Positions 11,799 through 33,555 of a DNA stretch of 64,000 nt are shown here, one piece after another; positions within the stretch are counted from its first letter, which is position 1; every line of letters begins with the position of its first letter. Origin of the DNA: Gammaproteobacteria bacterium. Lineage in GTDB: Bacteria > Pseudomonadota > Gammaproteobacteria > Burkholderiales > Rhodocyclaceae. The DNA is taken from assembly GCA_029289235.1 (NCBI GenBank), contig JARFTZ010000048.1:124001-188000 (forward strand). Reading direction: 5' to 3'. The translations under genes and the position numbers were made by a program. The notes under the pieces are model-generated. The model did no database searches. It was given only the letters and a program-made list of their open reading frames with translations, and was not told the DNA's origin.

Positions 11799-12905
11799 TC
11801 AGGCTGTCTCGGCTGCCACAAAGCGCAGCAACGAATGACTGATGCCCAGGTCGTCAATGGTTTCCGCGAGGCGCAGTCCATTCCGTTCCGCGCATGCTGC
11901 AATTGCGGTTGACTCGTGCATCTTGCTGTTCCCGCTGGCGATCGAGGTGAAGTACGGCGAGGTGTTGATCAGGCAATAGCTGGCGATATCGTATTTTTGG
12001 CGATCCCAGAAGGTGTCAAGGATCCAGATCGACCCCCCGGGGCTGAGCGCCACCGCCGCCCTCCTGAAAATATGGCCGATGGCGTCAAGACTGAAGCAGG
12101 TGAGGAACTGGCTCATCCAGATGGCATCCATTCCACCTGGGAACGGCGCGTCGAAATCGAGGACGTCGAGCGGATATAGCTCGGCACGCGCAATCATCCC
12201 GGCGTCTTCCAGCGTCATCCGGGCCCGGGCAAGCTGAATGGGCAGATCGAGCAGAGTGACGCGGACGTCAGAATCGTGATTCAGACAGCGCAACGTCCAC
12301 TTTCCGGTGTTGGCCCCGATATCCAGCAAACGTCGCGGCTTATGCGAAAAAACAGGCGCAAGCGCCTGGGAGAAGGCGGAATCGGAATAGTAATGGTCGA
12401 AATCGAACCAGCTGGTGCGCGCCGGCTCGGGAAGATCCGAAAGACCTTCGTAGATCGTTCGCCAGTCGCCCAGCGCTTTCAGACCGAGCGGCTTTTCTGC
12501 GCGCAGGCAGGCGTCCAGCCGGAACAGTCCTTCGTAGCAAACGTCATGGATGTAGTTGAGGTTGATCTGGGTCAGCTCGTCGTGAAGGATGTTGTCGCCG
12601 ACGCGGGTAAGCAGGTAGCGCCCGTTTCTCCGCTTGACGACGCCGGCAGACAGCGCCGTTTCCAGCACCACGGAGATGGCGTATTCGGAAAGGCTGCCCG
12701 CCGCCGCCAGGTCGGCAACTGTTGCACCCTCCTCGCCTGCTGTTTCGATGTGCGCCAGCAGCCCGCTTTTCCAGGCGACGCGAACGCACTGGAAGACGAT
12801 CGGACCAAAGGCAATGCGTTGCGCTTCAAAGCGAGCGTCCAGACCGCGCAAGCGTGCGGGGGCGAATTCGATATTCTCTTCAATTGACTCGGTCGTTGCG
12901 TTCAT
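11799..12905 (-). CDS. Class I SAM-dependent methyltransferase with N-terminal winged-helix domain
   Basis: 368 residues and the last gene of the polyene operon. An N-terminal dimerisation/winged-helix-like region (ATVADLAAAGSLSEYAISVV, residues ~60-80) precedes a Rossmann methyltransferase domain with motif I LLDIGANTGKWTLRCL and VTLLDLPIQLARARM. This layout is that of Methyltransf_2 type O-methyltransferases acting on phenolic or small aromatic substrates. It lies 21 bases after the hydrolase-radical SAM gene. By position it may methylate the aryl head or a modification of the polyene; that is inference. Confidence 0.82.
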   Translation of the reverse strand: MNATTESIEENIEFAPARLRGLDARFEAQRIAFGPIVFQCVRVAWKSGLLAHIETAGEEGATVADLAAAGSLSEYAISVVLETALSAGVVKRRNGRYLLTRVGDNILHDELTQINLNYIHDVCYEGLFRLDACLRAEKPLGLKALGDWRTIYEGLSDLPEPARTSWFDFDHYYSDSAFSQALAPVFSHKPRRLLDIGANTGKWTLRCLNHDSDVRVTLLDLPIQLARARMTLEDAGMIARAELYPLDVLDFDAPFPGGMDAIWMSQFLTCFSLDAIGHIFRRAAVALSPGGSIWILDTFWDRQKYDIASYCLINTSPYFTSIASGNSKMHESTAIAACAERNGLRLAETIDDLGISHSLLRFVAAETA

Positions 12906-12926
12906 CGCAAATCTTTCTTTTGGAGA

Positions 12927-14747
12927 TCAGAAACGGGGACAGGCCAGACACGCTTCGGGCGGTTTGTCGCTGAGCATGCGGTCGCGATGCCGGATCATCG
13001 CGGGGCCGTCCCACCAGGCGCCGACGCCGTCGTGGTGGATATTGCCGATGACGGCCTCGGGCTGGCAGTCGCACAGCGTCAGGTTGCCGTCGACATTGAC
13101 CGGAATGCTCTGCCAGGGCGACAGGCAGTGCGTGTGCCGCGTCGCCCGGGCGGCAATGTTTTCGCCACGCAGGAGGAGGTAGTCGAGGTACTGTCGATCG
13201 AGGGCGAACTCCTCCAGTCCGTGCACCGAAAGCACGGGCAGGCGGCGGGCGGCCGCGCGTCTGAGGGCTCGGCGGATCGTGCCGCGCTGCTCCGGGGACA
13301 GCGTGTGATGTAGCGACCTCGCCTGGTTGGACGGGAAGTTCAGGTCGGAAACCATCAGGGCATCGAGCTCGTGTTCGGCAGAAAAATCGACAATCGCCTC
13401 GAACTCGACGACCGTATCTCCCGTGAGCGCGGTGAACGCCGCGGTGCTTATCGCGACTCCGAGACGGCGACGGGTGGCGCTGAATCTCCCGATGTTTTCA
13501 CTGATCCGGGCCATCTCGCTACCGGGGCGAATCCGCTCGGCGATGGCCTGGTCAACCGCATCGAGACTGAAGGTGATTGCCGCGAGGCCGGATCGGCAAA
13601 GCGCCTCCGCCATCTCTGCGTCCAGCAACATCGCGTTGGTGACGAGTCCGACCCGTCGTCCAGCGGCCACCGCGAGCCGGATGAAATCGACGACCTCCGG
13701 ATGCAGCAGCGGTTCGCCGAGGCCCACCAGGACGATCCGGCAGGCATGCGGAAGATGCTCGAGCACGCGGGCGAACTCCTCGCGCGGCATGAATCGCGAT
13801 TTCACCTTGAGCCGTGTCCGCGCGCAGGCGGGGCAGCCCAGATTGCAGCGCGTGGTGATTTCGATGTTGGCGATGGTCGGTTCCGCGCCAGCGATCATGC
13901 CGGGGCGGAACGCTTCACCTCTGGCGCGATGCGCGGCGGGGCTGGCGTCGACATGGCGGGCGGAATCGGGCCACGTGGAAAAGAAGGATCTCAATTCCGG
14001 CATCATGTCGAACAGCAGGCGCTGATTGGCTGTGCATTCCCCCGCACGGGGGCGAACGGCATCATCGACGGCCCGGCAGACCGCGTCGATGGCCATCCCG
14101 GACTTTTCTCCGGTAAAAAGATGATGCCTCGCGCCGGCAATGCGCATTTGCCGCAACGGGCCGTCCAGACGTTTTTCTCGCCAGAGGCCGGCGGCGGCGA
14201 CGGGAACGAGTTCGTCGTCCTCGCCGTGCAGCAGCAGAACTGGCGCCGGAACGGCGATCGGGCCGTGCCGTGCGAGGCGATTGATCAGCGAGACGAGTGC
14301 GCCGACATCATGCAGGAGATTTTCCTGTCCGGCAGTGTGCTCGGCCCAGCGCTGCGCGTAGCCGAGATCGATGAGCGGCGGTGTGGCGCAAAGGACGAGC
14401 AGTCGCAGCGCGTCCAGACTGGCCGGGTCGGTGGTCAGGCGGCGGGCGATTTCGGCGAGCAGCAAGGTGCCGCCGGTCGAATGTCCGAGCAGCACCAGCT
14501 TGCGACCTGCGCTGCGCTGTCTGTCGATGGCGGTCGCCAGCACGGAAAGAAAAGCCGCTTCGTCGAACGGCGGCGAAGCGGAGTTGTCGTGCGCCGGCAG
14601 GCAGAGGTTCGTCACCGCATCTGTTCCGTAACGGCGTGCGATCGCCGCCTCGAGCGTTGCCAGATCGGCGGGGCGGCCAAGATAGCCGTGAACCAGCAGA
14701 ATCCCGACAGCATTGTCGCGCGCTGAGCCCCCTCGGGAGAAGGTCAT
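12927..14747 (-). CDS. Alpha/beta-hydrolase fused to radical SAM/SPASM protein
   Basis: 606 residues. The N-terminal half is an alpha/beta hydrolase: GILLVHGYLGRPADL (oxyanion region), nucleophile Ser in LLGHSTGGTLLLAE (residue ~100), acid in LLLHGEDDELVPV and His in GARHHLFTG. The C-terminal half is a radical SAM domain with CNLGCPACART (CX3CX2C) following ITTR, then GLGEPLLHP. It ends in a short SPASM-like Cys region (CLSPWQSIPVNVDGNLTLCD, and CLACPRF at the end). The gene overlaps the upstream glycosyltransferase by four bases. The domain pairing is unusual; a role in tailoring a polyene is inferred only from the operon. The reading frame is continuous, so this is not an assembly of two overlapping genes. 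Confidence 0.85.
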   Translation of the reverse strand: MTFSRGGSARDNAVGILLVHGYLGRPADLATLEAAIARRYGTDAVTNLCLPAHDNSASPPFDEAAFLSVLATAIDRQRSAGRKLVLLGHSTGGTLLLAEIARRLTTDPASLDALRLLVLCATPPLIDLGYAQRWAEHTAGQENLLHDVGALVSLINRLARHGPIAVPAPVLLLHGEDDELVPVAAAGLWREKRLDGPLRQMRIAGARHHLFTGEKSGMAIDAVCRAVDDAVRPRAGECTANQRLLFDMMPELRSFFSTWPDSARHVDASPAAHRARGEAFRPGMIAGAEPTIANIEITTRCNLGCPACARTRLKVKSRFMPREEFARVLEHLPHACRIVLVGLGEPLLHPEVVDFIRLAVAAGRRVGLVTNAMLLDAEMAEALCRSGLAAITFSLDAVDQAIAERIRPGSEMARISENIGRFSATRRRLGVAISTAAFTALTGDTVVEFEAIVDFSAEHELDALMVSDLNFPSNQARSLHHTLSPEQRGTIRRALRRAAARRLPVLSVHGLEEFALDRQYLDYLLLRGENIAARATRHTHCLSPWQSIPVNVDGNLTLCDCQPEAVIGNIHHDGVGAWWDGPAMIRHRDRMLSDKPPEACLACPRF

Positions 14748-15958
14748 GATTTCTCCAGCTGCGAGACCAGTTGCTCCGCGCCGCGATAGCGACTCAGGTG
14801 CCGGGCCGCCGAGTCGAGACGCTCCGCCAGTCCGCCGTTGGCGAGAAACGCTGCAATTTCGTCGGCCAGTTGCTGCGTCGGGCGTGCCAGGAAAGCGGCA
14901 TCGATGTCCGTGGCGTGACCGCCGAAAACCACGCCGCGCAGCAAGCGATGTCCGCAGCCGATGCGTTCAAGGCACACCCCGTTCTGGGCCTGTTCCGGTT
15001 GCATGGGCAGAACGAAAACGGGGGTGTGCTGGCGCAAGGCCTCGAATATCAGGCCCTGGCCGCCGTGACAGACGACGAGCGCGGCGCGTGGCAGCACCTG
15101 TTCCACTGGCAGAAAATCGAATACGGCGAGGCGTGCCGGGTCCACGGGCAATTCGTCGGGAGCCTGTTGCCCGCCAAGGCCCAACGCGACCGAACACCCG
15201 ATGTGCCAGAGCGCCTCAACGAGATGCGGCAACCATCCCGCCGGCACGCTCCCCGTGCCGAAGGCGACATAGGCAATCGGGCCGCGCAGCGTATCGAGTT
15301 TCTGCAGGTCGACGTCGTGGTGTGGCCAGTTGTGCCAGAGCACCTGCCCGACATGGCAATAGGTCGGCTGCTCTGGCAACGGCTGAAACTCCGGGGTGTC
15401 CCATAGAAACGTGCGTTTCCCTTCAAGGAGTTGCCAGATGTCCTCAATCGCCGGCAGCCCCAGGCGGGTGAGCGCCGGTCGAAGGCGTTGCGCACAGGTT
15501 TCGCGGAAGAAACTCAGCGCCCTGGCCTGTTCCTGTTCGCCCGGCTCGTTTTTTGCGAACCCGAGCACCTCGGCACACGCCGGGGTCATGGCACCGCAGA
15601 TCAGCGAATCGTAGGGAACCCCCGCCAGGGCCGCCGAAACCGGACCGGTGAAGCGAAACACGCCCAACACGGCATCCGGGCGCAGCGTGCGCAACAATTC
15701 GACTTCGGCGTGCACGCAGGCCTCGAAACGCTCCGGTCTGAACCACGAGAAACCGGGCAATGGCGCGGCGTCGGCTTCCTGAATGTCGGGAAGGATGACA
15801 TAACGCCCCTCGCCGATGCGATCCAGAAAAGCCGTGCGTCGGGCCGAGACCGCGAGAAACACTTCGTGCCCGCGCGCTTCGAGTGCGTGACGCAGGGCCA
15901 GGCTTTTTGCGATGTGGGAGAGCGTGTTGTTGCAGGGCGTGAGCAGATAGCGGCTCAT
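14744..15958 (-). CDS. GT1/MGT-type glycosyltransferase
   Basis: 404 residues with a GT-B fold plan. The N-terminal acceptor half begins LTPCNNTLSHIAKSLALRHA and EARGHEVFLAVSAR. The C-terminal donor half has YVAFGTGSVPAGWLPHLVEA and the donor-site CHGGQGLIFEALRQHTPVFV followed by PMQPEQAQNG, the equivalent of the HCG...P...DQ.xNA motif of UDP-glycosyltransferases. Such enzymes glycosylate lipids, carotenoids or polyketides. It overlaps the next gene by ATGA. Canonical APE clusters carry a GT2-acyltransferase fusion and not, to my knowledge, this type, so it is an extra tailoring enzyme. Confidence 0.86.
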   Translation of the reverse strand: MSRYLLTPCNNTLSHIAKSLALRHALEARGHEVFLAVSARRTAFLDRIGEGRYVILPDIQEADAAPLPGFSWFRPERFEACVHAEVELLRTLRPDAVLGVFRFTGPVSAALAGVPYDSLICGAMTPACAEVLGFAKNEPGEQEQARALSFFRETCAQRLRPALTRLGLPAIEDIWQLLEGKRTFLWDTPEFQPLPEQPTYCHVGQVLWHNWPHHDVDLQKLDTLRGPIAYVAFGTGSVPAGWLPHLVEALWHIGCSVALGLGGQQAPDELPVDPARLAVFDFLPVEQVLPRAALVVCHGGQGLIFEALRQHTPVFVLPMQPEQAQNGVCLERIGCGHRLLRGVVFGGHATDIDAAFLARPTQQLADEIAAFLANGGLAERLDSAARHLSRYRGAEQLVSQLEKS

Positions 15959-15998
15959 GCGACCCGTCCCCCTCCTCCCCCGATCTGCGGTGGCAAAC

Positions 15999-16442
15999 TT
16001 ATTCGGCCAGCTTGACGACGGTCCCTTTCAAGGCCACGCCGGACATCAGCGCGCCGCTGCCGCACATGTACTCGGTTTCGCTGCTGCGCTCGTTGTTCTT
16101 GTAGTTGCTCTTGATGTTGATGACCGCATTGCCCCCTTCCTTTTGGGCGCGCTCCTGAAGTTCGAGCACCGCGCTCAGGAACACCCATTCGCACGCTTCC
16201 TTGTCCGACTTGTTGAAGCCGTTGGTCTTCTTGTTGGTTTTCCACTCGCCGAATTCCTTGACGACTCGGGGATGTTTCTGGTTGCCGAAAAACAGCTTGA
16301 TCGACGGGTCGAGCTTGTCCCTGGCGGCTTCGGTCGCCAGGGCGTCTTCCAGCGGATGCATGCGCTGATCGTCGCGGGCGAACGTGTTGGCAGAGGCGGC
16401 CAGTGCGGCGAGGGTGAGGGTCAAAGGCAGGAGTTTGTTCAT
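15999..16442 (-). CDS. Small exported protein of the polyene operon (often misnamed excinuclease subunit)
   Basis: 147 residues with a signal peptide (LLPLTLTLAALAASANTFA). The mature part is Lys-rich (EWKTNKKTNGFNKSDKEACEW) and ends with a segment GGNAVINIKSNYKNNERSS followed by CGSGALMSGVALKGTVVKL. The GGNAV(I/V)xI pattern resembles the core of YbjQ/UPF0145-type small proteins, suggesting a similar small beta-alpha fold. Homologues I recall near such clusters carry a misleading excinuclease ATPase label; there is no ATPase motif here. Likely periplasmic; function unknown. It has two Cys that could form a disulfide. Confidence 0.72.
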   Translation of the reverse strand: MNKLLPLTLTLAALAASANTFARDDQRMHPLEDALATEAARDKLDPSIKLFFGNQKHPRVVKEFGEWKTNKKTNGFNKSDKEACEWVFLSAVLELQERAQKEGGNAVINIKSNYKNNERSSETEYMCGSGALMSGVALKGTVVKLAE

Positions 16443-16480
16443 TTTTGTTTTCTTTCATTGCAGTTGGCGAAAGCCGCCAT

Positions 16481-17686
16481 TCAATCCAGGCGGCGAAAAA
16501 TCAGGCACGCATTGGTGCCGCCGAAACCGAAACTGTTGCTCATGACGGAATCGAAACGGCGCTCTTCGCTGGCGAGCAGGATGGGGAAATCCCGGCACGC
16601 CGGGTCGAGCTCGGATACATTGGCGCAACCGCTGACAAAGCCGCGATTGAGCATCAGCAGAGAAAAAATCGCTTCCTGCGCCGCGGTGGCGGCAATCGAA
16701 TGCCCGCTCAGCCCCTTGGTCGAGGAGAGCGGCGGAATATTACACCCGAATACGGCGCGAACGGCCTCGAGTTCGCTGAGATCGCCGCGCACGGTGGAGG
16801 TCGCATGGGCATTGATGTAGCCGATCGGCGTGTCGGTTTCTGCCAGCGCAAGACGCATGGCCCGGGCGGCGCCTTCCGCGGCAGGGGAAACCATGTCCGC
16901 GCCGTCGCAGCACGCGCCATAGCCGGCGACTTCGCCGTGGATCGTGGCCCCCCTTTTCCGGGCATGCTCGAGTTCCTCCAGCACAAGGATGCCGGCGCCC
17001 CCGGCAATCACGAAGCCGTCGCGACCGGCATCGAAGGGGCGGGAGGCCGTGGCATCGTTGTAGGCCGTGGACAGCGCGCCCATCGCATCGAACAGGGCGG
17101 TGGAAGTCCAGCGAACCTCTTCCGCGCCGCCGGCAAAAACGATGTCCTGCCGGCCGGCGCGAATCAGGTCCACTCCGTTGCCGATGCAGTGGGCCGAGGT
17201 GGCGCAAGCGGAGGTGAGCGAATAGCTGGTGCCCTGGATGCCGAAGGCGGTGGACAGGCAGGCGGAGGTCGTGTTGCCCATCACTCGCGGCACGGTGTAG
17301 GGCAGCACCTTGGCGAGCCCGGACTGGCGCAGCAGATCGGCCGCCTGCACGTGTTCGAACGGGGAGCCGACCCCGGACCCGACGACGAGCCCGGTACGCG
17401 GGTGCGAGAGCAGACGGTTTTCGATGCGCGCGTCGTCCACGGCCCGTCGCATCGCGTGGTAGGCATAGAGCGATGCGTCGCCCATGAACCGGCGAAGCTT
17501 GCGGTCAACCGGCGGCTCGCCAGCGAGGTCGGGGATTCCGGCAACATGGCTGCGCAGCCCCAGCTCGGCGTATTCGGGCACATGCCTGATGCCGGAACGG
17601 CTGTGACGCAAGGCGTCTTCAACCGTGTCCGGATCGTTCCCCAGGCAGGAGACAATCCCCATGCCCGTAACCACGACGCGACGCAC
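16481..17686 (-). CDS. Beta-ketoacyl-ACP synthase (fourth ketosynthase of the cluster)
   Basis: 401 residues from a GTG start at 17686 (VVVTGMGIVSCLGND). The thiolase-fold triad is intact: Cys in TSACATSAHCIG, His in INAHATSTVRGD and His in KGLSGHSIAATAA. The C-terminal NSFGFGGTNACLIFRR is typical of FabB/FabF. It lies beyond the ketosynthase that normally closes the APE gene order, flanked by two small exported proteins, so it is additional. It could extend the polyene, make another acyl chain, or use a different starter; the sequence does not say which. Confidence 0.9.
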   Translation of the reverse strand: MRRVVVTGMGIVSCLGNDPDTVEDALRHSRSGIRHVPEYAELGLRSHVAGIPDLAGEPPVDRKLRRFMGDASLYAYHAMRRAVDDARIENRLLSHPRTGLVVGSGVGSPFEHVQAADLLRQSGLAKVLPYTVPRVMGNTTSACLSTAFGIQGTSYSLTSACATSAHCIGNGVDLIRAGRQDIVFAGGAEEVRWTSTALFDAMGALSTAYNDATASRPFDAGRDGFVIAGGAGILVLEELEHARKRGATIHGEVAGYGACCDGADMVSPAAEGAARAMRLALAETDTPIGYINAHATSTVRGDLSELEAVRAVFGCNIPPLSSTKGLSGHSIAATAAQEAIFSLLMLNRGFVSGCANVSELDPACRDFPILLASEERRFDSVMSNSFGFGGTNACLIFRRLD

Positions 17687-17741
17687 TGCCCTTGTTCCCC
17701 CTGTTCCGATGTTGTGGCGCGATGGCGCGTTGAGCGACAGC

Positions 17742-18158
17742 TCAGTACTTCATGAACTCGACGCGGATCGCATCGCGGAGTTCGCCGACGAACTTGTTGT
17801 AGTGCGGATGAATGACCGGCTTCCCGTCCTCCATGCCATAGCGCATGTTGATGCTGTCCTTGTAGGTGATCGTATAGCGCTCGGCCGTGCTGGCGATGCT
17901 GACGACGATGGTGTGCTTGTTGGCGTTCCAGCTCAGGGAGGCCACCATGACCCCGTCGGGCTGCTGGCCGACAACCCATTTCCGTCCTTCGGCGGCAGTG
18001 CGGATCGCCTGCTGGATCTGCTCGATGGGGAGTGCGTTGCCACTCGTTGTGGCGATGGCCTGTTCAACGACCTCGGTCATCGGCACCGGCGGGCGCGCCA
18101 GGACGGAACCGGACACAAACAGCGCCAGGGCGAACAAAGCGATTCTCAGGGCATTCAT
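17742..18158 (-). CDS. Small exported hypothetical protein of the polyene operon
   Basis: 138 residues with a signal peptide (RIALFALALFVSGSVLA) and no recognised domain. The mature protein alternates beta-strand-like stretches (WVVGQQPDGVMVASLSWN, TIVVSIASTAERYTITYKD) and ends in a charged helix (FVGELRDAIRVEFMKY). The core YTITYKDSINMRYG resembles small periplasmic lipoproteins of unknown function found near lipid-export genes. It lies between two ketosynthase genes in the same direction. Function unknown; export suggests a role in product delivery or envelope. Confidence 0.72.
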   Translation of the reverse strand: MNALRIALFALALFVSGSVLARPPVPMTEVVEQAIATTSGNALPIEQIQQAIRTAAEGRKWVVGQQPDGVMVASLSWNANKHTIVVSIASTAERYTITYKDSINMRYGMEDGKPVIHPHYNKFVGELRDAIRVEFMKY

Positions 18159-18172
18159 GGTTTCCTCCTTTT

Positions 18173-19396
18173 TTACACTCTGCGGAATATGAGCGACGTA
18201 TTGATGCCGCCAAAGGCGAAGTTGTTGCTCATCGTGTATTCAGTATCGATCTCGCGCCCGGTGCCAACAAGGTAATCGAGCGTTCCGCAGGCCGGATCGA
18301 CCTCGGAAAGATTGATCGTTGGCGCAAACCACTTTCGCCGCATCATCTCGATCGTCCACCATGCCTCGATTGCACCGCAGGCGCCGAGCGTGTGACCCAC
18401 ATAGCTTTTCACCGAGCTGATCGGCTTGCCCGGGCCAAGAACGCTTTCCGTCGCGAGCGTTTCCGCGACATCGCCACGGTCCGTCGCGGTACCGTGCGCG
18501 CTGACGTAGCCGATTTCAGAAGGCGGCAGGTCTGCGTCAGCGAGCGCTTGCTGCATGACCACGGCCATCGTCGACTGTTCGGGCTGGGTGATGTGGCTGC
18601 CGTCCGAGTTCGTGGCGAAGCCGATGATTTCCGCGTAGATCCGCGCGCCGCGTGCTACGGCGTGTTCGTACTCTTCCAGCACGAGGGTGGCCGCGCCTTC
18701 GCCGACCACCAGGCCGTCGCGCCGGCGGTCGAAGGGGCGGGGTGTCGTTTCCGGCGTGTCGTTCTGGCAGCTGGCGGCAAACAGGGTGTCGAACACCGCC
18801 GCGGAGGCGACCGACAGTTCCTCGGCGCCGCCCGCCAGCATCATTTTCTGACGGCCGAAACGAATGGCTTCGTAGGCGTAGCCGATGCCCTGGCTGCCGG
18901 AGGTGCAGGCGCTGGACGTCGGAATGACGCGGCCCTTGAGCCCGAAGTTGAGCGCCACGTTGACCGCCGTGGTGTGCGGCATCATCTGGATGTAGCTGGT
19001 CGACGTCACGCCGTCCATCGAGGCGGCCTCGAGCATCTTGCCGAAAACCCGGACCGGCTCCAGGCTGCCCGACGAGGAGCCGTAGGCGATGCCCATGCGC
19101 CCGTCACGGATCGTCGCATCGTCGAGCAGGCCGGCATCGGCCAGCACCATTTCACTGGCGCGCACCGCGAGCAGCGAGACGCGGCCCATCGAGCGCACCA
19201 TCTTGCGCGGATAATGGGCAGGAATCCGGAAATCATCGACAGGCGCCCCCAGACGGGTATTCAACGCCGCGAAAACCTCCCATTCCGGCATGTGGCGCAC
19301 GGCATTGCGCCCTTCGCGCAGGCGCGCCTCGATGTGCTCCCAGCCATCGCCGAGGGCGGTGATTCCGGCCATGCCGGTGACCACGACGCGGCGCAT
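18173..19396 (-). CDS. Beta-ketoacyl-ACP synthase, ApeR-type
   Basis: 407 residues. The ketosynthase triad is complete: Cys in TSSACTSGSQGIGYAYEAI, His in SAHGTATDRGDVAETLA and His in SYVGHTLGACGA. It begins VVVTGMAGITALGDGWE and ends NNFAFGGINTSLIFRRV. Its place after the ketoreductase matches ApeR in canonical APE operons. The start codon shares one base with the ketoreductase stop (TGATG), showing tight coupling. It presumably makes or extends an acyl chain; in E. coli the exact need for ApeR is less clear than for ApeO. Confidence 0.92.
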   Translation of the reverse strand: MRRVVVTGMAGITALGDGWEHIEARLREGRNAVRHMPEWEVFAALNTRLGAPVDDFRIPAHYPRKMVRSMGRVSLLAVRASEMVLADAGLLDDATIRDGRMGIAYGSSSGSLEPVRVFGKMLEAASMDGVTSTSYIQMMPHTTAVNVALNFGLKGRVIPTSSACTSGSQGIGYAYEAIRFGRQKMMLAGGAEELSVASAAVFDTLFAASCQNDTPETTPRPFDRRRDGLVVGEGAATLVLEEYEHAVARGARIYAEIIGFATNSDGSHITQPEQSTMAVVMQQALADADLPPSEIGYVSAHGTATDRGDVAETLATESVLGPGKPISSVKSYVGHTLGACGAIEAWWTIEMMRRKWFAPTINLSEVDPACGTLDYLVGTGREIDTEYTMSNNFAFGGINTSLIFRRV

Positions 19397-20585: not shown

Positions 20586-20597
20586 AGGGTGTTTCGG

Positions 20598-25373: not shown

Positions 25374-25396
25374 TGAAGCCTCACTGCAAATGCTCC

Positions 25397-25466: not shown

Positions 25467-25502
25467 AAACGGGGGGTGTGCAAGCGGTGGATGTTGAATT
25501 TT

Positions 25503-25922: not shown

Positions 25923-27480
25923 GCGGATACAGCTCCCAGTGTGCCTGCCGGATCAGGCAGGTCAGTTGACGCAGTTCGGCTTCCAGCGGACGGTCCTCGT
26001 CGAGGAACGCGGAATGTTCGGTGACGTTGCTCATGAAAGCCGCGACCTCTGGCATCAACGCGGTCGGCTCGGTATCGACCAGACGCTGACGCAGACGGAC
26101 ACCCTGCACGCTGGCCAGCGTCAGCGCCGCGGCGACCTGCTCGGTCAGGTCGAGGACGCGCAGACAATCGCGTGCCGCAATGGTGCCCATGCTCACCTTG
26201 TCCTGGTTGTGGCACTCGGTCGAGCGCGAGAAGACGCTGGCCGGCATCGTCAGTTTCAGCGCTTCGGCGGTCCAGGCCGAGGCGCCGATCTGCACGGCCT
26301 TGAAGCCGTGGTTTATCGGCGCACGCGTGACGCTGCTGCCGGACAGGTTCTGCGGCAGGCCATGGTTGAACCTGCTATCGACGAGCAGGGCCAGCTGGCG
26401 GTCCATCAGGTCGGCGAGGTTGGCGACGGCGGTCTTCAGCGCGTCCATGGCGAAAGCGATGTGGCCGCCGTAGAAATGGCCGCCGTGCAGCACCAGTTCG
26501 GCATCGCCGTCGATCAGCGGATTGTCATTGGCGCTGTTGAGCTCGTTCTCGATGTCGCGGCGCATCCAGGTCAGCGCATCGCGGGCGACGCCGATCACGT
26601 GCGGCGCGCAGCGGATCGAATAGCGGTCCTGCAGGCGAATGACCTCCTTGTCGTCGGGATGCAGATCGGCGTAAATCCACGCGGCTGCTTCGTTCTGCCC
26701 GGCGTGCGGCTTGGCGGCGAAGAGGCACGGATCGAAATGGCCGCGATTGCCGCGCAGGGCGATCGACGCGAGCGCCGTCAGCCGGCAGCAAAGACGGCTC
26801 AGCGATTCGGCGCGTTGCCAGGCGAGGCAGGCCAGCGCGGTCATCACGGCGGTGCCGTTCATCACTGCCAGCCCCTCCTTCGGCGCCAGCCGGAGCGGCG
26901 GCAGCCCCAGTTCATCGAGCACCTCGAGCGCCGGCCGGCGTTGTCCGGCAAAACGGACGTCGCGTTCGCCGATCAGCGCGGCGGCGACGTAGGAGAGCGG
27001 CGTCAGGTCGCCGCTGGCGCCGACCGAGCCTTCGGCCGGGATGAACGGCAGGACGCGATGCCGGATCAGCGCCGCCAGCTGCTCGAGCAGCTCCCAGCGC
27101 ACGCCGGAATAGCCCTGCGCCAGCGAGTTCAGGCGGCAGACGAGCACGGCCAGCGTCTGCTCGTCGTCCAGATACTCGCCGAGGCCGCAACCGTGGTAGC
27201 GCGTCAGGTGCAGCGGCAGTTCGGCGACGAGTTCGGGCGGGATGCCGACGGTGCAGGAGTCGCCGTAACCAGTGGTGACGCCGTAGACGACCCCGTTGTT
27301 GGCCAGCAGGCGTTCGAGATACTGCGCGCCGCTGCGAATGCGGCGTGCGAACTCGGGCGCGCCGGACAGCGACACGCCGGCTTCGCCGCGCGCGACGCGC
27401 AACACGTCCTCGATGCGCAGCCGCCGTTCGCCGACGGTTACGTGCGTTTCGAGTGTCTTCGGAGATGTGCCAATGTTCAT
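25915..27480 (-). CDS. Aromatic amino acid ammonia-lyase (HAL/TAL family)
   Basis: 521 residues. The MIO cofactor is formed from the Ala-Ser-Gly triad in GSVGASGDLTPLSYVA. Other signatures are GVTTGYGDSC, the QDRYSIRCAP stretch and NSANDNPLIDG. The substrate-selectivity pair, by alignment to HAL (Ser-His) and bacterial TAL (His-Leu), reads Tyr-His here (HLTRYHGCGLG). The likely product is a cinnamate-type starter (4-coumarate if tyrosine is used) for the adjacent ligase, as in flexirubin and some APE pathways. Substrate cannot be fixed from sequence; plain histidine catabolism is unlikely because no hut genes are near. Confidence 0.88.
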   Translation of the reverse strand: MNIGTSPKTLETHVTVGERRLRIEDVLRVARGEAGVSLSGAPEFARRIRSGAQYLERLLANNGVVYGVTTGYGDSCTVGIPPELVAELPLHLTRYHGCGLGEYLDDEQTLAVLVCRLNSLAQGYSGVRWELLEQLAALIRHRVLPFIPAEGSVGASGDLTPLSYVAAALIGERDVRFAGQRRPALEVLDELGLPPLRLAPKEGLAVMNGTAVMTALACLAWQRAESLSRLCCRLTALASIALRGNRGHFDPCLFAAKPHAGQNEAAAWIYADLHPDDKEVIRLQDRYSIRCAPHVIGVARDALTWMRRDIENELNSANDNPLIDGDAELVLHGGHFYGGHIAFAMDALKTAVANLADLMDRQLALLVDSRFNHGLPQNLSGSSVTRAPINHGFKAVQIGASAWTAEALKLTMPASVFSRSTECHNQDKVSMGTIAARDCLRVLDLTEQVAAALTLASVQGVRLRQRLVDTEPTALMPEVAAFMSNVTEHSAFLDEDRPLEAELRQLTCLIRQAHWELYPHV

Positions 27481-29189
27481 GAGTCTTGCCGTGCCCCGTC
27501 AGTGGCAGGGGCGCCGCCCTGCCAGAAGTCGTAGAAATTGAACCATTGCTCCGGCACCAGCCGGCAGTAGTGCTCGAGCCGTTGCGCATAGCGCTGGAGG
27601 TACTCCTGAAGGCGTACCAGTCGTTCGCGGCGCGGCAAGTCGATCCGCTCGGCGAAGCGCTCCAGATGAATCCGGTAACCAGGTTGGCTGCCCTGCGTCT
27701 CGCGCAGGCCGAACACCAGATAGACCGGGCATTCGAGCAGGCTGGCGAGGATGAAGGGGCCGTGCGCGAACGGGGCCGGGCTGCCGAGAAAATCCACGCG
27801 GCTGACCCGGTGGCTGCTTCGCTCGGCCGGCGGGGTGCGGTCGCCGACGATGACCACCAATTCGCCGCGATCGATCTTCTCCTTCAGCAGGATCGCCGTG
27901 TCCGCCCCCAGGTGTGAGACTTGGATCATGTTCACGCCGAATTCGGCGTTGGCCTGCTTGAGCATGTCGTTGAAGCGCTGGGCATGCTCCGTAAAAACGA
28001 CGGCATTGACCGTCGCCTGGCGTTCGTTGACCGCCAGTGCACGCATCATTTCGAGGTTGCCGAGATGCGCGCCGATCAGCACCGCACCCTGCCCGCTATC
28101 GAGCAGCCGGTGCAGCTCGGGGCGGTCGGGAAAGTTGACCTGCCGGCTTCCCAGTTCGCCGAGCCAGGCCGCCAACTTGTCCAGCCCGGACTGGCCGAAC
28201 GCCAGCATGTGCCGGAAGCTGTCGCGCCAGCCCGGTTCCGGCCAGCCGTTCAGGCGATTCACGCGGCGCAGGTAGTCGAGCGAGGCAGTACGGGCTTTTT
28301 TTCCGGTGAGGAAGAAGTAGCCGATGATCGGGTAGAGCAGCCAGCGCGCCACCTGCGGACCGAGCAGGCGGTAGCAGGCGAAGACGGTCTTCAGACCGAG
28401 CACGCTGCCGCGTTCGGCGAGGCGCGACCAGTGCTGCCCGGCGGCGCGCCGGCCGAACAGCTTGCGCGTGAGCAGCACCGGCAGGCGCAGCAGCATGCCG
28501 CAGGTCAGGCGCGTGTGCATCTTCGAAATGCGCAGGTTGTCGCGCAGCATGTCGAAGTGCGACAGGCCGTCCTCGGGATAGGTCACGCGCGTGTCGACGA
28601 CCAGGAACTCGAGTCCTTCCCAAGCCAGCCGGACGAAGATCTCGATGTCGAAATCCATCCGCGTCGGTATCTCGACGCGGTCGATCAGCGCACAGGTCTC
28701 AGCCAGCGGATAGAGCCGGAAGCCGCACATCGAGTCGATGATCGACGGGTTCAGCGTTTCGACGCAGACCCAGAAATGGGTGATGTAGCGGCCGTACAGC
28801 CGTCCCTTCGGCACCGACGCGTCATAGATCGGCTGGCCACAAACGAGCGCCAGCGGATGGGCAGCGCTGAGTTCGAGGAAACGCGGGACATCGGCCGTGT
28901 CGTGCTGGCCGTCGGCGTCGATCTGCAGCGCGTGGGTGAAGCCGGCGGCCAGCGCCTCGCGCATGCCGCGCATCACGGCAGCGCCCTTGCCGCCGTTCTG
29001 CGGCAGGCGAAACAGGCGGACCCGCGGGAACTCCGCGGCAAGGTCGGCGAGAACCCGCTGCGTGGTCTCGTCGCTGCCGTCGTCGACGATGAGGATCGGC
29101 AGGGCGTAGCCGGCGAGCCGTTCGACCGTCGCGCGGATGCTGCGCCAGTGGTTGTAGATCGGGATCAGCAGGCAGGGCGAGAAGGTCAT
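27477..29189 (-). CDS. Glycosyltransferase family 2 fused to LpxL-like acyltransferase, ApeJ-type
   Basis: 570 residues. The N-terminal GT2 domain has LLIPIYNHWRSIRATVE, IVDDGSDETTQ and the acidic metal motif LQIDADGQHD. The C-terminal HtrB/LpxL-like domain has LIGAHLGNLEMMRALAV (HX4E type) and VVIVGDRTPP. Such fusions are standard in APE clusters and are believed to attach the polyene to a lipid/sugar anchor. ATG 29189 overlaps the upstream stop (ATGA), which fixes the start in preference to the longer in-frame start. Confidence 0.9.
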   Translation of the reverse strand: MTFSPCLLIPIYNHWRSIRATVERLAGYALPILIVDDGSDETTQRVLADLAAEFPRVRLFRLPQNGGKGAAVMRGMREALAAGFTHALQIDADGQHDTADVPRFLELSAAHPLALVCGQPIYDASVPKGRLYGRYITHFWVCVETLNPSIIDSMCGFRLYPLAETCALIDRVEIPTRMDFDIEIFVRLAWEGLEFLVVDTRVTYPEDGLSHFDMLRDNLRISKMHTRLTCGMLLRLPVLLTRKLFGRRAAGQHWSRLAERGSVLGLKTVFACYRLLGPQVARWLLYPIIGYFFLTGKKARTASLDYLRRVNRLNGWPEPGWRDSFRHMLAFGQSGLDKLAAWLGELGSRQVNFPDRPELHRLLDSGQGAVLIGAHLGNLEMMRALAVNERQATVNAVVFTEHAQRFNDMLKQANAEFGVNMIQVSHLGADTAILLKEKIDRGELVVIVGDRTPPAERSSHRVSRVDFLGSPAPFAHGPFILASLLECPVYLVFGLRETQGSQPGYRIHLERFAERIDLPRRERLVRLQEYLQRYAQRLEHYCRLVPEQWFNFYDFWQGGAPATDGARQDS

Positions 29190-30910
29190 GCGGCACCGCC
29201 GAAGAGAATGCGTCCGGTGGAATACTTGCGCTGCGGCGTGGCGTAAGCGAACTCGAGACGCTGGCGGGCGGCATCCCAGGTCAATGAAAGCTGGAGCTTC
29301 GTTCCCGGGAGGATGACGCCGAGAAACTTGAGGTTTTCCAGCGCCGAGAAGTGGCCGGTTAACGCTAGGTGTCGGCGCGCAAAAAACACCGCCCAATCGA
29401 CCTGAACAACACCCGGCAGGAGGGCTGCGCCGGGGAAATGACCGGCGAAGTGCGCGATGTCGGACGTGACATGCAGATCGAGCACGACGTGATTCCGGTT
29501 CCCTCCGGCAAAGTTGACGGCGGTGACTTCTGGCAGCAGCGCTGGTTCGGGAACGACGTCAGGCAAATCGAACAGCGCCGCCAACGCGGCAGCGGCGACC
29601 TTGCCGCGCTCGTTGGTCGGCAACTGGTCGGGAAAGCGCCAGTGGCGCGGCAGCAGCACCGCGTCGAAATGGTTGGCGAGATGCGTACGCAGCGTCTGCG
29701 CGACGGCGCGTTTGCCGGACGCTTGCAGCGCTGCTTTGCCTTGTGCATTGAGTACCACAACGGCGCCGATACTCTGACGACGCCCGTTCAACGCGACGGC
29801 AGCGGACGAATCGACCCAGCCGTGGGCGAGCAGCCGGGATTCCATGTCCGGCAGGGACAGTCGCTTTTCCTCGATCTTGACGATGCGGTCGAGTCGGCCG
29901 AGCAGGCGGAAGCGGCCGTCGGCCTGCAGGGCGATGCCGTCATCCATTTCCCACGGTGCGTCGTCCGCGAGAAAGGGCGAGCGCAGCGTCAGCGCGCCGG
30001 TATCCGAGGCGGACACCGTGTGGCAGAGGAACGGTGTCCACAAGTCGCCATCGGCCCCGACTTGCTGGCGCCAGGCGACGCCGCCGGTTTCGGTGCTGCC
30101 GAAGACTTCGATCGGCGCTTCGCCCAGGCCGTCGGCCAGCGCCCTGGCCGCACTGCCCGGCAGCGGGCCGCCGGAGGAGAAGACGGCGACCGGCTTCGGT
30201 TGCAGCGCCGCCAGCGGCAGCAAGTCGGGCAGACGCGTCAGCTGGGCGGGGCTGGAGATCAGTGCCGCGCGGCCGAAGACGGCGAGGCGTTCTTCCAGCA
30301 TATCCGGATGGGCGCAAGTCACGGCGTCGAAAACCCGGCCGCTGGCCAGCGGCCAGAAAACCCGGAAGAGCAGGCCGTAGATGTGCTGATGCGGCGCGGT
30401 CGCCAGAATCGCCGCCGCGCCGATCTTTTCGCCCCACAGCGATTCAAGGACCGCGACTTCCGCGTCGAACTGCGCCAGCGTCTTGCGCACCCGCTTGTGT
30501 TCGCCGGTGCTGCCCGAGGTGTACAGGTCGATGATCGCCCGGTGCGGATCGATCGCCGCAAGGGGGGACGTCAGCGAGGCGTTGTCGACCGTCAGCGTGT
30601 CCAGTCGGGCGTCGAAGGCCGCGGCTAGCGCATCCAGCGTTCCCGGGCGGGTGTTCGGCGGAATGACCGCCTGCTTCCCGGCGAGCAGGAGCGCGAAAAG
30701 TTCGGCGGTGAAGTCGAGCGGGTCGTCGCTGGTCAGTAGCCAGCGCTTTTCAGGATGTTGCCGCAGCGTGGCGGCGAGACGGGAAACCCGCACGGAGAAG
30801 TCGCGCCAGACGATCAGGCGCTGTCCGTCACGGGCTACCGGGTGATCGTCGGGGCGCCCCCGATTGAACAAGTCGGGCAGGGCGATCAGGTGAGGGGCGA
30901 AATTCGTCAT
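29186..30910 (-). CDS. Acyl-CoA/ACP ligase fused to a hotdog dehydratase-like domain (ApeH-ApeI type)
   Basis: 574 residues from ATG 30910, which overlaps the upstream stop. The N-terminal ANL adenylating domain (to ~residue 450) has the P-loop LYTSGSTGEHKRVRKTLA and EVFGSTETGGVAWRQ. The last ~110 residues form a hotdog domain with SDIAHFAGHFPGAALLPGVV, the active-site type of ApeI dehydratases. The ligase would activate the aryl starter (coumarate-like) and load an ACP; the hotdog part would act in the dehydration step. In E. coli these are, to my recollection, separate genes, here one polypeptide. Confidence 0.88.
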   Translation of the reverse strand: MTNFAPHLIALPDLFNRGRPDDHPVARDGQRLIVWRDFSVRVSRLAATLRQHPEKRWLLTSDDPLDFTAELFALLLAGKQAVIPPNTRPGTLDALAAAFDARLDTLTVDNASLTSPLAAIDPHRAIIDLYTSGSTGEHKRVRKTLAQFDAEVAVLESLWGEKIGAAAILATAPHQHIYGLLFRVFWPLASGRVFDAVTCAHPDMLEERLAVFGRAALISSPAQLTRLPDLLPLAALQPKPVAVFSSGGPLPGSAARALADGLGEAPIEVFGSTETGGVAWRQQVGADGDLWTPFLCHTVSASDTGALTLRSPFLADDAPWEMDDGIALQADGRFRLLGRLDRIVKIEEKRLSLPDMESRLLAHGWVDSSAAVALNGRRQSIGAVVVLNAQGKAALQASGKRAVAQTLRTHLANHFDAVLLPRHWRFPDQLPTNERGKVAAAALAALFDLPDVVPEPALLPEVTAVNFAGGNRNHVVLDLHVTSDIAHFAGHFPGAALLPGVVQVDWAVFFARRHLALTGHFSALENLKFLGVILPGTKLQLSLTWDAARQRLEFAYATPQRKYSTGRILFGGAA

Positions 30911-31473
30911 CCCGTCTTTCGCATGATGAACAGGCGACGATAGAGCCACTCGCCGGCGAACAGGGCACCCATCAACAGGTAGGCGATGAAGCCGTTGTAG
31001 AGCGCCCAGTCGTCGCGGCTGGCATACAGCGCCGTCCAGGCGGCGGCGGCGCCGTTGGCGACGAAGAAGGCGCACCAGAGCTGGGTCACGCGCCGCGTAT
31101 AGCCGATGGCCGCCGCAGGCAGGTCGGGCTCGCCGAGCCGCGCGAAACGCTCGACCATCGACGGCGGAACGAGCAGCGAGCCGCCGAAGAGCAGCAGCAT
31201 CCCGAGGTTGACCGCCGCCGGGTACAGCCGCAACAACAGCTCGCTATTGGTGGCCGCCGTTGCTCCCGCGAGCAGCAGCAGTCCGCCGAGGATCGCCAGG
31301 TCGATGCGCGACAGGCTCGCCAGCAGGCGGGTCGCCTGCCGGCTGCGCCGCATCAGGAGAACCGCCACGAGTACCAGCGCGACATGGCGCGGCTCGGCGA
31401 TGCGCAGCCCGAAAAAAATGGCGACTGGATAAAGCAGCCAGGATAGCGGGGAAAGCAGTTGCTTCAGTCGCAT
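30907..31473 (-). CDS. Polytopic membrane protein, ApeG/COG4648-type
   Basis: 188 residues with about five to six hydrophobic stretches (LLYPVAIFFGLRIA, HVALVLVAVLLM, IDLAILGGLLLLAGATAA, LGMLLLFGGSLLVPPSM, WCAFFVANGAAAAWTALYA). COG4648-type proteins of this size occur between ACP and ligase genes in APE clusters. Function unknown; an inner-membrane role in assembly or transfer is likely. The stop overlaps the ligase start. Confidence 0.78.
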   Translation of the reverse strand: MRLKQLLSPLSWLLYPVAIFFGLRIAEPRHVALVLVAVLLMRRSRQATRLLASLSRIDLAILGGLLLLAGATAATNSELLLRLYPAAVNLGMLLLFGGSLLVPPSMVERFARLGEPDLPAAAIGYTRRVTQLWCAFFVANGAAAAWTALYASRDDWALYNGFIAYLLMGALFAGEWLYRRLFIMRKTG

Positions 31474-31510
31474 CGGGTCGCCGGGTCGAAGAGGAGACGC
31501 ACGATCGACG

Positions 31511-31756
31511 TCAGCCGGCCATCAGTTGCTTGACGGTGCTGATCACGTCGCCGACGGTACGAACCGTCTTGAAATCCTCGGGCTTGATGCGCTTGCCGGT
31601 CAGTTGTTGCAGCTTGATCGCCAGATCGACGGCATCGATGCTGTCGAGGTCGAGTTCCTTGAAAAGGTTCGCTTCCGGAACCACGCGCTCCGGGCTGATC
31701 TCGAAGGACTCCTCGAGGATTTCCTTGAGTTTGTCGAGGATTTGTTCGTCGTTCAT
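31511..31756 (-). CDS. Acyl carrier protein, ApeF-type
   Basis: 81 residues from ATG 31756 (MNDEQILDKLKEILEESFEI). The 4'-phosphopantetheine site is Ser in LDLDSIDAVDLAIKLQQ. It is acidic and helical as usual for ACPs. It is one of two tandem ACPs that carry the growing polyene between ketosynthase, reductase and dehydratases. The longer in-frame start at 31921 would lie inside the other ACP gene and is rejected. Confidence 0.93.
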   Translation of the reverse strand: MNDEQILDKLKEILEESFEISPERVVPEANLFKELDLDSIDAVDLAIKLQQLTGKRIKPEDFKTVRTVGDVISTVKQLMAG

Positions 31757-31784
31757 GTTTGTCTTGCCCAGTAAAAACGTTGAC

Positions 31785-32051
31785 TCAGACGGCTTGTGTC
31801 TGTGCCTTGACCAGTTGCGCCAGGCTATTGACCGAGCGGAAATGCTCGCGGTTGCCCGCGTCGTTGGCTTCGAGTTGCACCTTGTACTTCTTGCGCAGGG
31901 CGATGCCCAGTTCCAGCGCATCGATCGAGTCGAGACCGAAGCCGCCGTCGCCGAACAGCGGGATGTCGTCGGCGATGTCTTCCGGTTGCGTGTCTTCGAG
32001 GTCGAGCGCGTCGATGATGAGGCGCTTGATTTCCTGTTTCAGCATGTCCAT
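31785..32051 (-). CDS. Acyl carrier protein, ApeE-type
   Basis: 88 residues. The phosphopantetheine Ser lies in GFGLDSIDALELGIALRKK. The N-terminal MDMLKQEIKRLIIDALDLED is longer than the other ACP. The gene overlaps the acyltransferase end by 13 bases and is 28 bases upstream of the second ACP gene. Two different ACPs side by side are a hallmark of APE clusters. Confidence 0.92.
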   Translation of the reverse strand: MDMLKQEIKRLIIDALDLEDTQPEDIADDIPLFGDGGFGLDSIDALELGIALRKKYKVQLEANDAGNREHFRSVNSLAQLVKAQTQAV

Positions 32052-32824
32052 CGAGTGAGTTCCTGACTAAAAAAACCTTCAAGTGCCCGCGTCAGCTTGC
32101 GGGCGGCGATCGTTTGCGTTTCGCACGGTTCGACCCAGTGCTCCGGGCGCACGGGGTCGAGTACGCGGATGCGCAGGTGGAAGCGGCGCGGCGGAATCTG
32201 ATACCACTTCTCGCGCTTGGTCAGCGTTGTCGGATTGCAGTCGATGATCACGGGGATGACCGAAGCCTGGCTCCGCAAGGCGATATGGGAAGCGCCGCGC
32301 TGAAAACGCAGCGGCTCGCCGGGGCTGGTACGCGTGCCTTCGGGAAAAATGATCAGCGGTTTGCCATGGCGCAGATCGCGGGCGCAGTCGTCGATCAGGC
32401 TGTCGGAATCCGAGTTGCTGAGGTAACCGGCGGCACGGACCACGCCGCCGAGGAAGGGATTCAGCCACAGCGACTGCTTGACCACGCAACTGGCGTCGGG
32501 CATCAACGAGATCAGCGCCACGACATCGATCAGTGTCGGATGATTGGCCAGCACCAGCATGCCCCCGCAGTCACGCAGCTTTTCCGCCCCGTCCACCTCC
32601 ATGCGCATGATGCCGACCGTTTCCATCAGCCAGAGGAAGGCACCGAAGGATTTGTGAATGATCCAGCGCGTTCTTTCGGCGCGTGTGCGTCGACAGGCCG
32701 CGCTTACGGCGGGGAAGACGAATGCCCAAAGCGCGAAACCGCCCAGGCTGAAGATCGCAAAGCACCCTCCGGTCGCGACCAGCCGCCAGCAGTAATTCAG
32801 ACGGGAAAACATCAGGCCTCCCAT
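32039..32824 (-). CDS. Lysophospholipid acyltransferase-like protein (PlsC family), ApeD-type
   Basis: 261 residues from ATG 32824, which overlaps the upstream stop (ATGA). An N-terminal hydrophobic helix (VATGGCFAIFSLGGFALWAF) anchors it. The PlsC motif NHPTLIDVV (HX4D) at about residue 95 and FPEGTRTSPG further on are both present. It probably moves an acyl chain to a lipid acceptor during assembly of the membrane-anchored polyene. Confidence 0.9.
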   Translation of the reverse strand: MGGLMFSRLNYCWRLVATGGCFAIFSLGGFALWAFVFPAVSAACRRTRAERTRWIIHKSFGAFLWLMETVGIMRMEVDGAEKLRDCGGMLVLANHPTLIDVVALISLMPDASCVVKQSLWLNPFLGGVVRAAGYLSNSDSDSLIDDCARDLRHGKPLIIFPEGTRTSPGEPLRFQRGASHIALRSQASVIPVIIDCNPTTLTKREKWYQIPPRRFHLRIRVLDPVRPEHWVEPCETQTIAARKLTRALEGFFSQELTRWTC

Positions 32825-33555
32825 CAACCGTTCTTTTCCCAGCGCCAGGTGCGACCGCCTTCGCTCCACGCGCCCTCGCCTTGGTCGAGGGCGCGGATAA
32901 AGGCTTTTGCTTGCGCTTCGTTGCCCGGGGGGGCGCCGGTGGCGAGGGAAGTACAGGCAACGCGTGTCGACGCCGAGGCGTCGAGCAGCAGGCCCAACAC
33001 CAGCGTTGGCCGGTCAAGCGGTTCGCCCGTCTCGTAGTCCGCCGGGGCCGGTTCGTCGGCATAGAGGTAGAGCACCGGCAAGTCGGGCCTTTCGGCGAGT
33101 TGCAGGCAGGCCTCCAGCAAGCCATACCCGAAACTCGCCGTCCCGGCGGAGATGGCCGTGGAGGGCGCGGTATTCTTCTGCAGGATGGAGAACAGTCCCG
33201 CACTGGCGTTGAGCACGGACATGCTGAACAGGGTCGGCGAGAGTTCCTCCCCGGTCGCAAGGCTTTCCAGCATTTTTGTCGTGCGCGCGAGTTCGCCGTG
33301 GCGCGAGGCGAAAACGATCCGCGCACGGGTGACGTCCCGCACGCAATCATGCGCAACATGCAGCACGATCCTGGCCAGCGAGCTGAGACGCCGCCTGAGC
33401 ATCGGTTCGACGAAGCCGACCTCCGGAACCCGCGCCGGAGCGCCCTCGTCCGTGATGGACTCCCAGACCGAGCGGCGGGCGATCGGTGCAATCAATGGCA
33501 GAACAACAGAATGCAAGGTCAGGACTTTCTCGCGATGAAGCTCCAGGCGGGCCAC
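32824..33555 (-). CDS. Ketosynthase-like chain-length factor (PF13723-type), ApeC-type
   Basis: 243 residues if a GTG at 33555 is used; a TTG at 33516 has a better purine-rich upstream stretch (GAGAAAG), so the start is uncertain. It is the shortened ketosynthase-like family with VPEVGFVEPMLRRRLSSLAR near residue 45 and ISAGTASFGYGLLEA where a true ketosynthase would have its Cys. The missing Cys marks it as a chain-length factor partner, as described for the APE type II PKS. It is the first gene of the operon; its promoter region lies in 33556-33767. Confidence 0.85.
   Translation of the reverse strand: MARLELHREKVLTLHSVVLPLIAPIARRSVWESITDEGAPARVPEVGFVEPMLRRRLSSLARIVLHVAHDCVRDVTRARIVFASRHGELARTTKMLESLATGEELSPTLFSMSVLNASAGLFSILQKNTAPSTAISAGTASFGYGLLEACLQLAERPDLPVLYLYADEPAPADYETGEPLDRPTLVLGLLLDASASTRVACTSLATGAPPGNEAQAKAFIRALDQGEGAWSEGGRTWRWEKNG

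Follow-up and report, generated by a model that had tools for sequence, protein, structure and literature searches.

A candidate two-gene tailoring cassette associated with aryl polyene gene clusters

Aryl polyenes (APE) are yellow membrane pigments. In Escherichia coli CFT073 and Xenorhabdus they are encoded by a cluster whose genes, according to the E. coli gene table of PMC8253772, run in the order apeA-R. The 64,000-bp window analysed here (C48:124001-188000 of a 3.8-Mb genome in 63 contigs; positions below are those of the window) likewise encodes an APE gene set (33555-18173, minus strand), in which the counterparts of ApeC to ApeR keep this order. It adds at the end a fourth ketosynthase (KS4), two small exported proteins (exp1 and exp2), a GT1-type glycosyltransferase (GT1 hereafter), an alpha/beta hydrolase fused to a radical S-adenosylmethionine (SAM) domain, and a methyltransferase. 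The window lacks the front genes ApeA/ApeB, carries an aromatic amino-acid ammonia-lyase gene between ApeJ and ApeK, and has ApeH fused to ApeI. An earlier sequence-only reading had described the stretch from 33.5 to 18.2 kb as following the canonical APE order almost exactly, which is correct for the succession from ApeC to ApeR and incorrect for these three features; the genes, including the tail that it listed, are present at the coordinates and in the order that it gave. We consider it probable that the GT1 and fusion genes form an optional two-gene cassette for APE tailoring, housed in an APE cluster that contains an ammonia-lyase.

The arcuflavin clusters of Azoarcus sp. BH72, which specify a betaproteobacterial xanthomonadin-like polyene, belong to the same chemistry class, and the part of PMC3949708 devoted to them includes methyltransferase, exporter, LolA, ligase and acyltransferase genes in common with the window. 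They differ in being split over two unlinked loci and in containing a XanB2-type chorismatase, a halogenase and dialkylresorcinol genes, with no ammonia-lyase listed; Table 1 of PMC3949708 is without a radical SAM gene, and its single glycosyl transferase, arcE, is of unstated type. With the flexirubin cluster (Flx proteins) the window shares an FlxJ-type methyltransferase and a starter ammonia-lyase, both as NCBIfam matches below the curated cut-offs; unlike that cluster, the window showed no dialkylresorcinol gene when 10 of its proteins were scanned with NCBIfam. Searches of the open PMC literature returned no report joining an APE cluster with a radical SAM enzyme (PMC9231227 and PMC9902471 mention both in passages that do not link them), nothing combining an APE gene cluster, a glycosyltransferase and radical SAM, and nothing joining Propionivibrio and aryl polyene. 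In the same literature, a search on hydrolase-radical SAM fusions gave no match naming an alpha beta hydrolase, and one for glycosylated APE gave matches only on 'aryl polyene lipid'.

The glycosyltransferase and hydrolase-radical SAM genes

The two genes are placed between exp2 and the methyltransferase gene:

14744..15958, minus strand: cassette gene 1, GT-B glycosyltransferase of the GT1/macrolide type (PF04101, 23.2 bits; matches to GT1-type PDB sequences)
12927..14747, minus strand: cassette gene 2, alpha/beta hydrolase fused to a radical SAM domain with a C-terminal SPASM/twitch-type domain (PF12697, PF04055, PF13186)

The C-terminal, donor-binding GT-B domain of GT1 is recognised by PF04101 just above its cut-off of 22 bits, with PF06722 and PF00201 scoring below theirs, and the protein falls outside TIGR01426 (MGT; 45 bits, below 260). 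His15, H298-G-G and E322-Q323 are invariant in all seven genomes found to carry the pair; GT1/macrolide glycosyltransferases have a catalytic histidine near the N-terminus, to which His15 would correspond.

All three Pfam models match the fusion above their cut-offs, PF12697 with 27.8 bits (cut-off 26.3), PF04055 with 80.6 bits and PF13186 with 34.7 bits (cut-off 21.5). The radical SAM assignment is borne out by a CX3CX2C motif (C301, C305 and C308) and the hydrolase assignment by Ser90, Asp178/Glu179 and His208/209, which, judged by motif and order, probably form the hydrolase triad; these residues are likewise invariant in all seven carriers. The same holds for five C-terminal cysteines, though identity to the window drops to 44%. 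Since catalytic residues and cysteines are invariant throughout, both halves of the fusion are probably under selection. The fusion of a Pseudomonadota metagenome-assembled genome (MAG; L034:10001-11995) contains an insert of ~50 residues in the hydrolase domain that is not seen in the other six. A full SPASM motif comprises seven cysteines. The fusion belongs to SPASM by PF13186 and departs from the seven-cysteine motif, with C541-X12-G-X4-C559, C561 and then C600XXC603 before the protein ends at residue 606. Its C-terminal domain thus appears to be a shortened, twitch-like SPASM form without the end of the motif, and an NCBIfam twitch-domain model also matches, below its cut-off.

Among PDB sequences, the radical SAM part matches best an unnamed radical SAM protein and second a tetraether-lipid synthase, with further matches to cytosylglucuronate decarboxylase (BlsE), MoaA, BtrN, NifB and PqqE. 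The solved radical SAM relatives thereby include sugar-acting enzymes, BlsE and BtrN by sequence and DesII by fold. The likeness to BtrN, DesII and BlsE is limited to the radical SAM core, which is all that the sequence matches cover, and to our knowledge these enzymes have no hydrolase domain; their reactions can therefore not be transferred to the fusion. By fold, 46 of the 50 best matches listed are alpha/beta hydrolases, monoglyceride lipases foremost, and DesII ranks first among the radical SAM matches (4 of 50 rows).

The lipase-like fold matches, together with the tetraether lipid synthase as second-best PDB match, favour a serious rival, which we nevertheless hold to be unlikely. The cassette would decorate the lipid or glycolipid anchor of the polyene, GT1 extending the head group, the fused lipase-like domain cleaving off an acyl chain, and the lipid tail or sugar being modified by the radical SAM domain. 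Passages of PMC8253772 propose that APE is lipid-attached, possibly as a glycolipid, via ApeD and ApeJ. Likeness to the alpha/beta hydrolase fold is, however, no evidence of substrate. GT1/macrolide-type enzymes, moreover, usually take small aromatic or polyketide acceptors. We lean slightly towards GT1 acting on the polyene itself, not on its lipid anchor.

Distribution and genomic context of the pair

Full-length fusions were found in seven genomes: that of the window, the named strain Propionivibrio soli SG131 (G006; 61% identity to the window), an Accumulibacter MAG (G011 = L035; 44%), a Rhodocyclaceae MAG (G098 = L031; 65%), G218 (63%), the Pseudomonadota MAG (L034; 62%) and a Lysobacterales MAG (L033; 58%). 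GT1 lies directly upstream of the fusion on the same strand in every one of them, with a 4 bp overlap in six and the genes abutting (0 bp) in one. A pattern scan of genome contigs gave eight loci, of which five full-length relatives were kept and three partial ones (27-33% identity) left out. Full-length fusions occurred in 3/59 relatives and in 4/249 sampled genomes of the family (five candidates scored per genome), and strong GT1 matches occurred in the same four family genomes. Such co-occurrence would have a chance probability of 6e-9 were genomes independent, which they are not; the pair therefore behaves as one unit. Eight further family genomes match the radical SAM part only (E <= 1e-20), and a fifth, weak GT1 match (G091; 111 bits versus 728 or more) comes from a genome with no ApeM match at 1e-30. 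No APE gene was found in a 19-kb stretch around this match, or in stretches of 15 and 14 kb around weak radical SAM matches in G151 and G072. In overlapping samples of the class and the order, with three candidates scored per genome so that misses are possible, 1/369 and 1/399 genomes matched at E <= 1e-60, both being the window itself.

An ApeM homologue is encoded by all seven carriers; the pair is thus not found mostly without APE genes, which would have contradicted the sequence-only reading. The association is weak when the carriers among the sampled family genomes (4/4 with ApeM) are set against the 86/249 genomes with any ApeM match at 1e-30 (p = 0.014), and stronger against the 13 genomes whose ApeM is closest (at least 47% identity; 5e-6), four of which contain the full-length fusion. 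Five of the seven carriers have the cassette within the APE cluster, each at a different position and one of them in inverted orientation:

Window: between exp2 and the methyltransferase gene
L031 = L058: between an acyl carrier protein gene and ApeM
L059 (G218): after ApeJ, the contig ending 655 bp later
L034: between ApeM and ApeN
L041: inverted, between the methyltransferase gene and ApeN

The APE genes of G218 (L059 and L060) are spread over two contigs, the ligase, acyl carrier protein and ApeJ part with the cassette on one and the ammonia-lyase and ketosynthase part on the other. A rough model of random placement that ignores relatedness, with a zone of 40 kb and a genome of 3.5 Mb, gives a probability of 4e-9 that at least five of seven cassettes fall in the zone. 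The repeated presence of the cassette at differing positions of APE clusters is therefore hard to explain without a functional link, and we are fairly confident that it acts in APE tailoring. Pairwise identities among the seven genomes follow those of the APE core for both the fusion (Spearman 0.87) and GT1 (0.77). Cassette-free clusters are interleaved with carriers in the tree. Together with the correlated identities and with trees that differ at weakly supported nodes, this is the pattern expected of an old cassette that was lost many times or regained several times.

We think it improbable that the two genes are a mobile or selfish pair that simply travels with APE clusters and serves to make some other metabolite. 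Sporadic distribution and the lack of linkage in two of the seven carriers would suit such a pair, as would the GC content at third codon positions (GC3) of GT1 (0.755), the fusion (0.777) and the methyltransferase gene (0.726), somewhat below that of most core genes; the core genes ApeC, ApeD and ApeH-I are, however, similar in GC3 and codon scores. The five positions inside APE clusters, the APE-positive status of every carrier found, the identities that track the APE core and a search of plasmid records that gave no fusion match at E <= 1e-20 all speak against this reading.

Possible role in polyene tailoring

What is directly supported is gene linkage and residue conservation, and we infer every reaction step. 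The APE core would make an aryl polyene from a cinnamate- or coumarate-type starter, and the FlxJ-like methyltransferase may methylate the aryl head, before or after glycosylation. GT1 would add a sugar, most likely on the aryl hydroxyl; as GT1 is the partner of the fusion, glycosylation of the aryl head is the simplest reading. By abstracting hydrogen, the radical SAM domain could then change the sugar so attached or the chain next to it, for example by dehydrogenation or epimerisation; that this step falls on the sugar rather than on the chain is, in our view, somewhat less likely than not. The hydrolase domain would remove or transfer an acyl or ester group, and the decorated polyene would exit via ApeM/L/N. 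The suggestion in the sequence-only reading that the tail modifies the polyene is borne out to the extent that the GT1 and fusion genes are tied to APE clusters.

Several observations weigh against a dedicated APE-tailoring role or against the chemistry proposed for it. In P. soli, the cassette and the methyltransferase gene (5.4-9.5 kb) lie ~197 kb from the APE cluster (~207-224 kb) on the same contig, and in the Lysobacterales MAG the cassette and the cluster are on different contigs (336931 versus 109205 bp). In the fusion and GT1 trees the genome of L034 groups with G218, whereas in the APE-core tree G218 groups with the Rhodocyclaceae MAG, at nodes with weak support. With five candidates scored per genome, nine of the 13 genomes whose ApeM is closest showed no full-length fusion, and the pigment therefore does not need the cassette. 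MoaA, NifB and PqqE match the radical SAM part as well and so single out no sugar substrate, and DesII, the best-ranked radical SAM fold match, superposes poorly (TM-score 0.31 to the query, root-mean-square deviation 12.4). The structural model of the fusion has a mean predicted local distance difference test score (pLDDT) of 65 and is poor past residue 508 and at the cluster loop (298-305), so that no active-site argument can be drawn from it. Furthermore, scanning the cluster proteins revealed no sugar-nucleotide gene. In P. soli, genes that by eye resemble ManC and RmlA, and hence nucleotidyltransferases (L039:1494-4469), are found at 0.9 to 3 kb from the cassette and methyltransferase gene and may hint at the sugar donor.

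A more far-reaching proposal, which we regard as doubtful, is that the fusion represents the first radical SAM enzyme of APE biosynthesis, a new GT1-coupled family that would carry out an oxygen-sensitive step on a glycosylated polyene or its sugar, with the hydrolase licensing release; bacteria living anaerobically or micro-aerobically would thus make a new class of APE glycosides. The cassette, small, strictly paired and recurring at different places in APE clusters, offers a concrete handle on the tailoring of these pigments, and one carrier, P. soli, is a named strain. Confirmation of its role would bring radical chemistry to APE pigments and establish a new family of radical SAM enzymes.

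Remaining tail and core genes

The other tail genes are:

17742..18158, minus strand: exp1, small exported protein (signal-peptide-like start by eye)
16481..17686, minus strand: KS4, fourth ketosynthase-family gene, FabB-like (PF00109/PF02801; NF005935 566 bits, below the cut-off of 630)
15999..16442, minus strand: exp2, small exported protein with a predicted YbjQ/DUF74-like fold (sub-threshold Pfam YbjQ match, fold model, homologues)
11799..12905, minus strand: FlxJ-like SAM-dependent methyltransferase (NF053543 436 bits, E 7e-131, below the cut-off of 560)

The 22 cluster proteins of the window were mapped onto relatives by tblastn at 1e-4. Six cassette-free clusters were mapped in this way (G086, G024, G273, G284, G141 and G260); G092 (L073), in which only ApeC to ApeM are visible, was left out of the cassette-free counts and the tree, and G139 and G088 also stand outside. 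KS4 is present in all six, exp2 in four (the contig of G284 ends 158 bp past KS4, where exp2 cannot be judged) and exp1 in three; KS4, exp1 and exp2 are therefore part of this APE subtype. Among cassette carriers, KS4 occurs in five of seven, with none in the Lysobacterales loci and the Accumulibacter contig ending ~0.8 kb past ApeR. A single five-gene tail was accordingly rejected, and the expectation of the sequence-only reading that the last five genes are co-conserved failed, KS4, exp1 and exp2 occurring in APE clusters without the pair and the methyltransferase gene in 3/9 cassette-free APE genomes.

That reading had also raised the possibility that the same carriers yield a second lipid, for which we found no positive evidence. 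The corresponding explanation, in which the whole tail from KS4 to the methyltransferase gene forms a further assembly line that uses the same acyl carrier proteins for another lipid, is very unlikely: KS4 is indeed an extra FabB-like ketosynthase whose active-site motifs look intact by eye, but KS4, exp1 and exp2 occur in cassette-free APE clusters, and the tail showed no recognisable second ligase, reductase or dehydratase.

The methyltransferase is found in 6/7 carriers versus the 3/9 cassette-free APE genomes (Fisher one-sided p = 0.055), and a status as third cassette gene is not established. It adjoins the pair in three carriers (the window, P. soli and the Accumulibacter MAG, where it is convergent) and is one gene off in a fourth. 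Its match to NF053543 spans model positions 7-349 of 352 and amounts to resemblance to FlxJ, not membership. The exp2 model is confident (mean pLDDT 86), with a Bacillus cereus protein and DUF74-family proteins as best fold matches (E 1.3e-3 upward, probability 1.0), in agreement with the sub-threshold Pfam YbjQ match; two cysteines are invariant across eight exp2 sequences. The longer frame 15955-16458, which overlaps exp2, was rejected as the gene, having a GC3 of 0.40 compared with 0.73-0.86 in the other called cluster genes.

The core genes, in their order of succession, are:

32824..33555, minus strand: ApeC-type ketosynthase-like protein/chain-length factor (PF13723, 188 bits)
32039..32869, minus strand: ApeD-type acyltransferase (PF01553, 74 bits)
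31785..32051, minus strand: acyl carrier protein 1, ApeE/F (PF00550)
31511..31780, minus strand: acyl carrier protein 2, ApeE/F (by eye; homologues at the same place in relatives)
30907..31473, minus strand: ApeG-type membrane protein (position, homologues in relatives; weak PF04279 match below cut-off)
29186..31075, minus strand: ApeH-ApeI, AMP-ligase fused to ApeI dehydratase (PF00501, 58 bits; PF22818 ApeI-like, 64.8 bits)
27477..29396, minus strand: ApeJ, family 2 glycosyltransferase and lipid A-type acyltransferase (PF00535 and PF03279)
25915..27480, minus strand: aromatic amino-acid ammonia-lyase (PF00221, 533 bits; best NCBIfam model tyrosine ammonia-lyase, below cut-off)
25503..25922, minus strand: ApeK thioesterase (PF13279)
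24717..25373, minus strand: ApeL, LolA-like (PF19574)
22351..24717, minus strand: ApeM, MMPL/RND exporter (PF03176)
21776..22354, minus strand: ApeN-type lipoprotein (position; lipobox-like start by eye; homologues in relatives)
20598..21779, minus strand: ApeO ketosynthase (PF02801/PF00109)
20121..20585, minus strand: ApeP dehydratase (PF22817 ApeP-like, 73.5 bits)
19396..20124, minus strand: ApeQ ketoreductase (PF13561)
18173..19396, minus strand: ApeR-position ketosynthase (NF006587 727 bits, above cut-off)

The assignment to the APE class is based on the ApeI- and ApeP-type dehydratases, both above cut-off (28.5 bits for PF22818, 27 bits for PF22817), and on a ketosynthase with its truncated ketosynthase/chain-length factor partner, a second ketosynthase, acyl carrier proteins, a ligase, a ketoreductase and an exporter with a LolA-like partner; an aryl polyene is the product predicted from these genes. 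The ammonia-lyase probably supplies the starter unit, and the APE cluster itself is ordinary, its ammonia-lyase-containing type occurring in related genomes of the same family as well.

Junctions were computed from mechanically chosen gene starts. In the core, overlaps of at most four bases occur at ApeJ/ammonia-lyase (-4), ApeL/M (-1), ApeM/N (-4), ApeN/O (-4), ApeP/Q (-4) and ApeQ/R (-1), whereas in the tail only GT1 and the fusion overlap (-4), the remaining gaps being 14, 55, 38, 40 and 21 bp; the frequent overlaps of four or fewer bases previously described are thus mostly a property of the core. As called, ApeD reaches 46 bp into the gene upstream of it, so that its true start is probably further downstream, and the starts of ApeH-ApeI (169 bp overlap) and ApeJ (211 bp overlap) are uncertain. 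In a consensus scan of 11500-18300, promoter-like sites of the sigma-70 type were absent where 1.1 were expected, and terminator-like sites numbered 12 where 6.5 were expected (standard deviation 2.8), six of the 12 being on the minus strand, inside genes. A single transcript of core and tail is plausible.

Within the core, a 129-bp gap separates ApeK and ApeL. A palindromic motif of the TCATTCCGGCGAAGGCCGGAATCC type, a dispersed repeat, occurs seven times in the window, where chance would give 0.01, namely within this gap (25374-25502) and at 42192, 43612, 55824, 57161, 59164 and 62705; a repeat finder reported nothing in the gap, where a second, similar palindrome was seen by eye. Elsewhere in the window, an alcohol/polyol dehydrogenase-like gene (52633-53730), where GC content dips to 50%, was possibly acquired; its neighbours are TRAP-transporter-like and dihydroxyacetone-kinase-like genes (named by eye).

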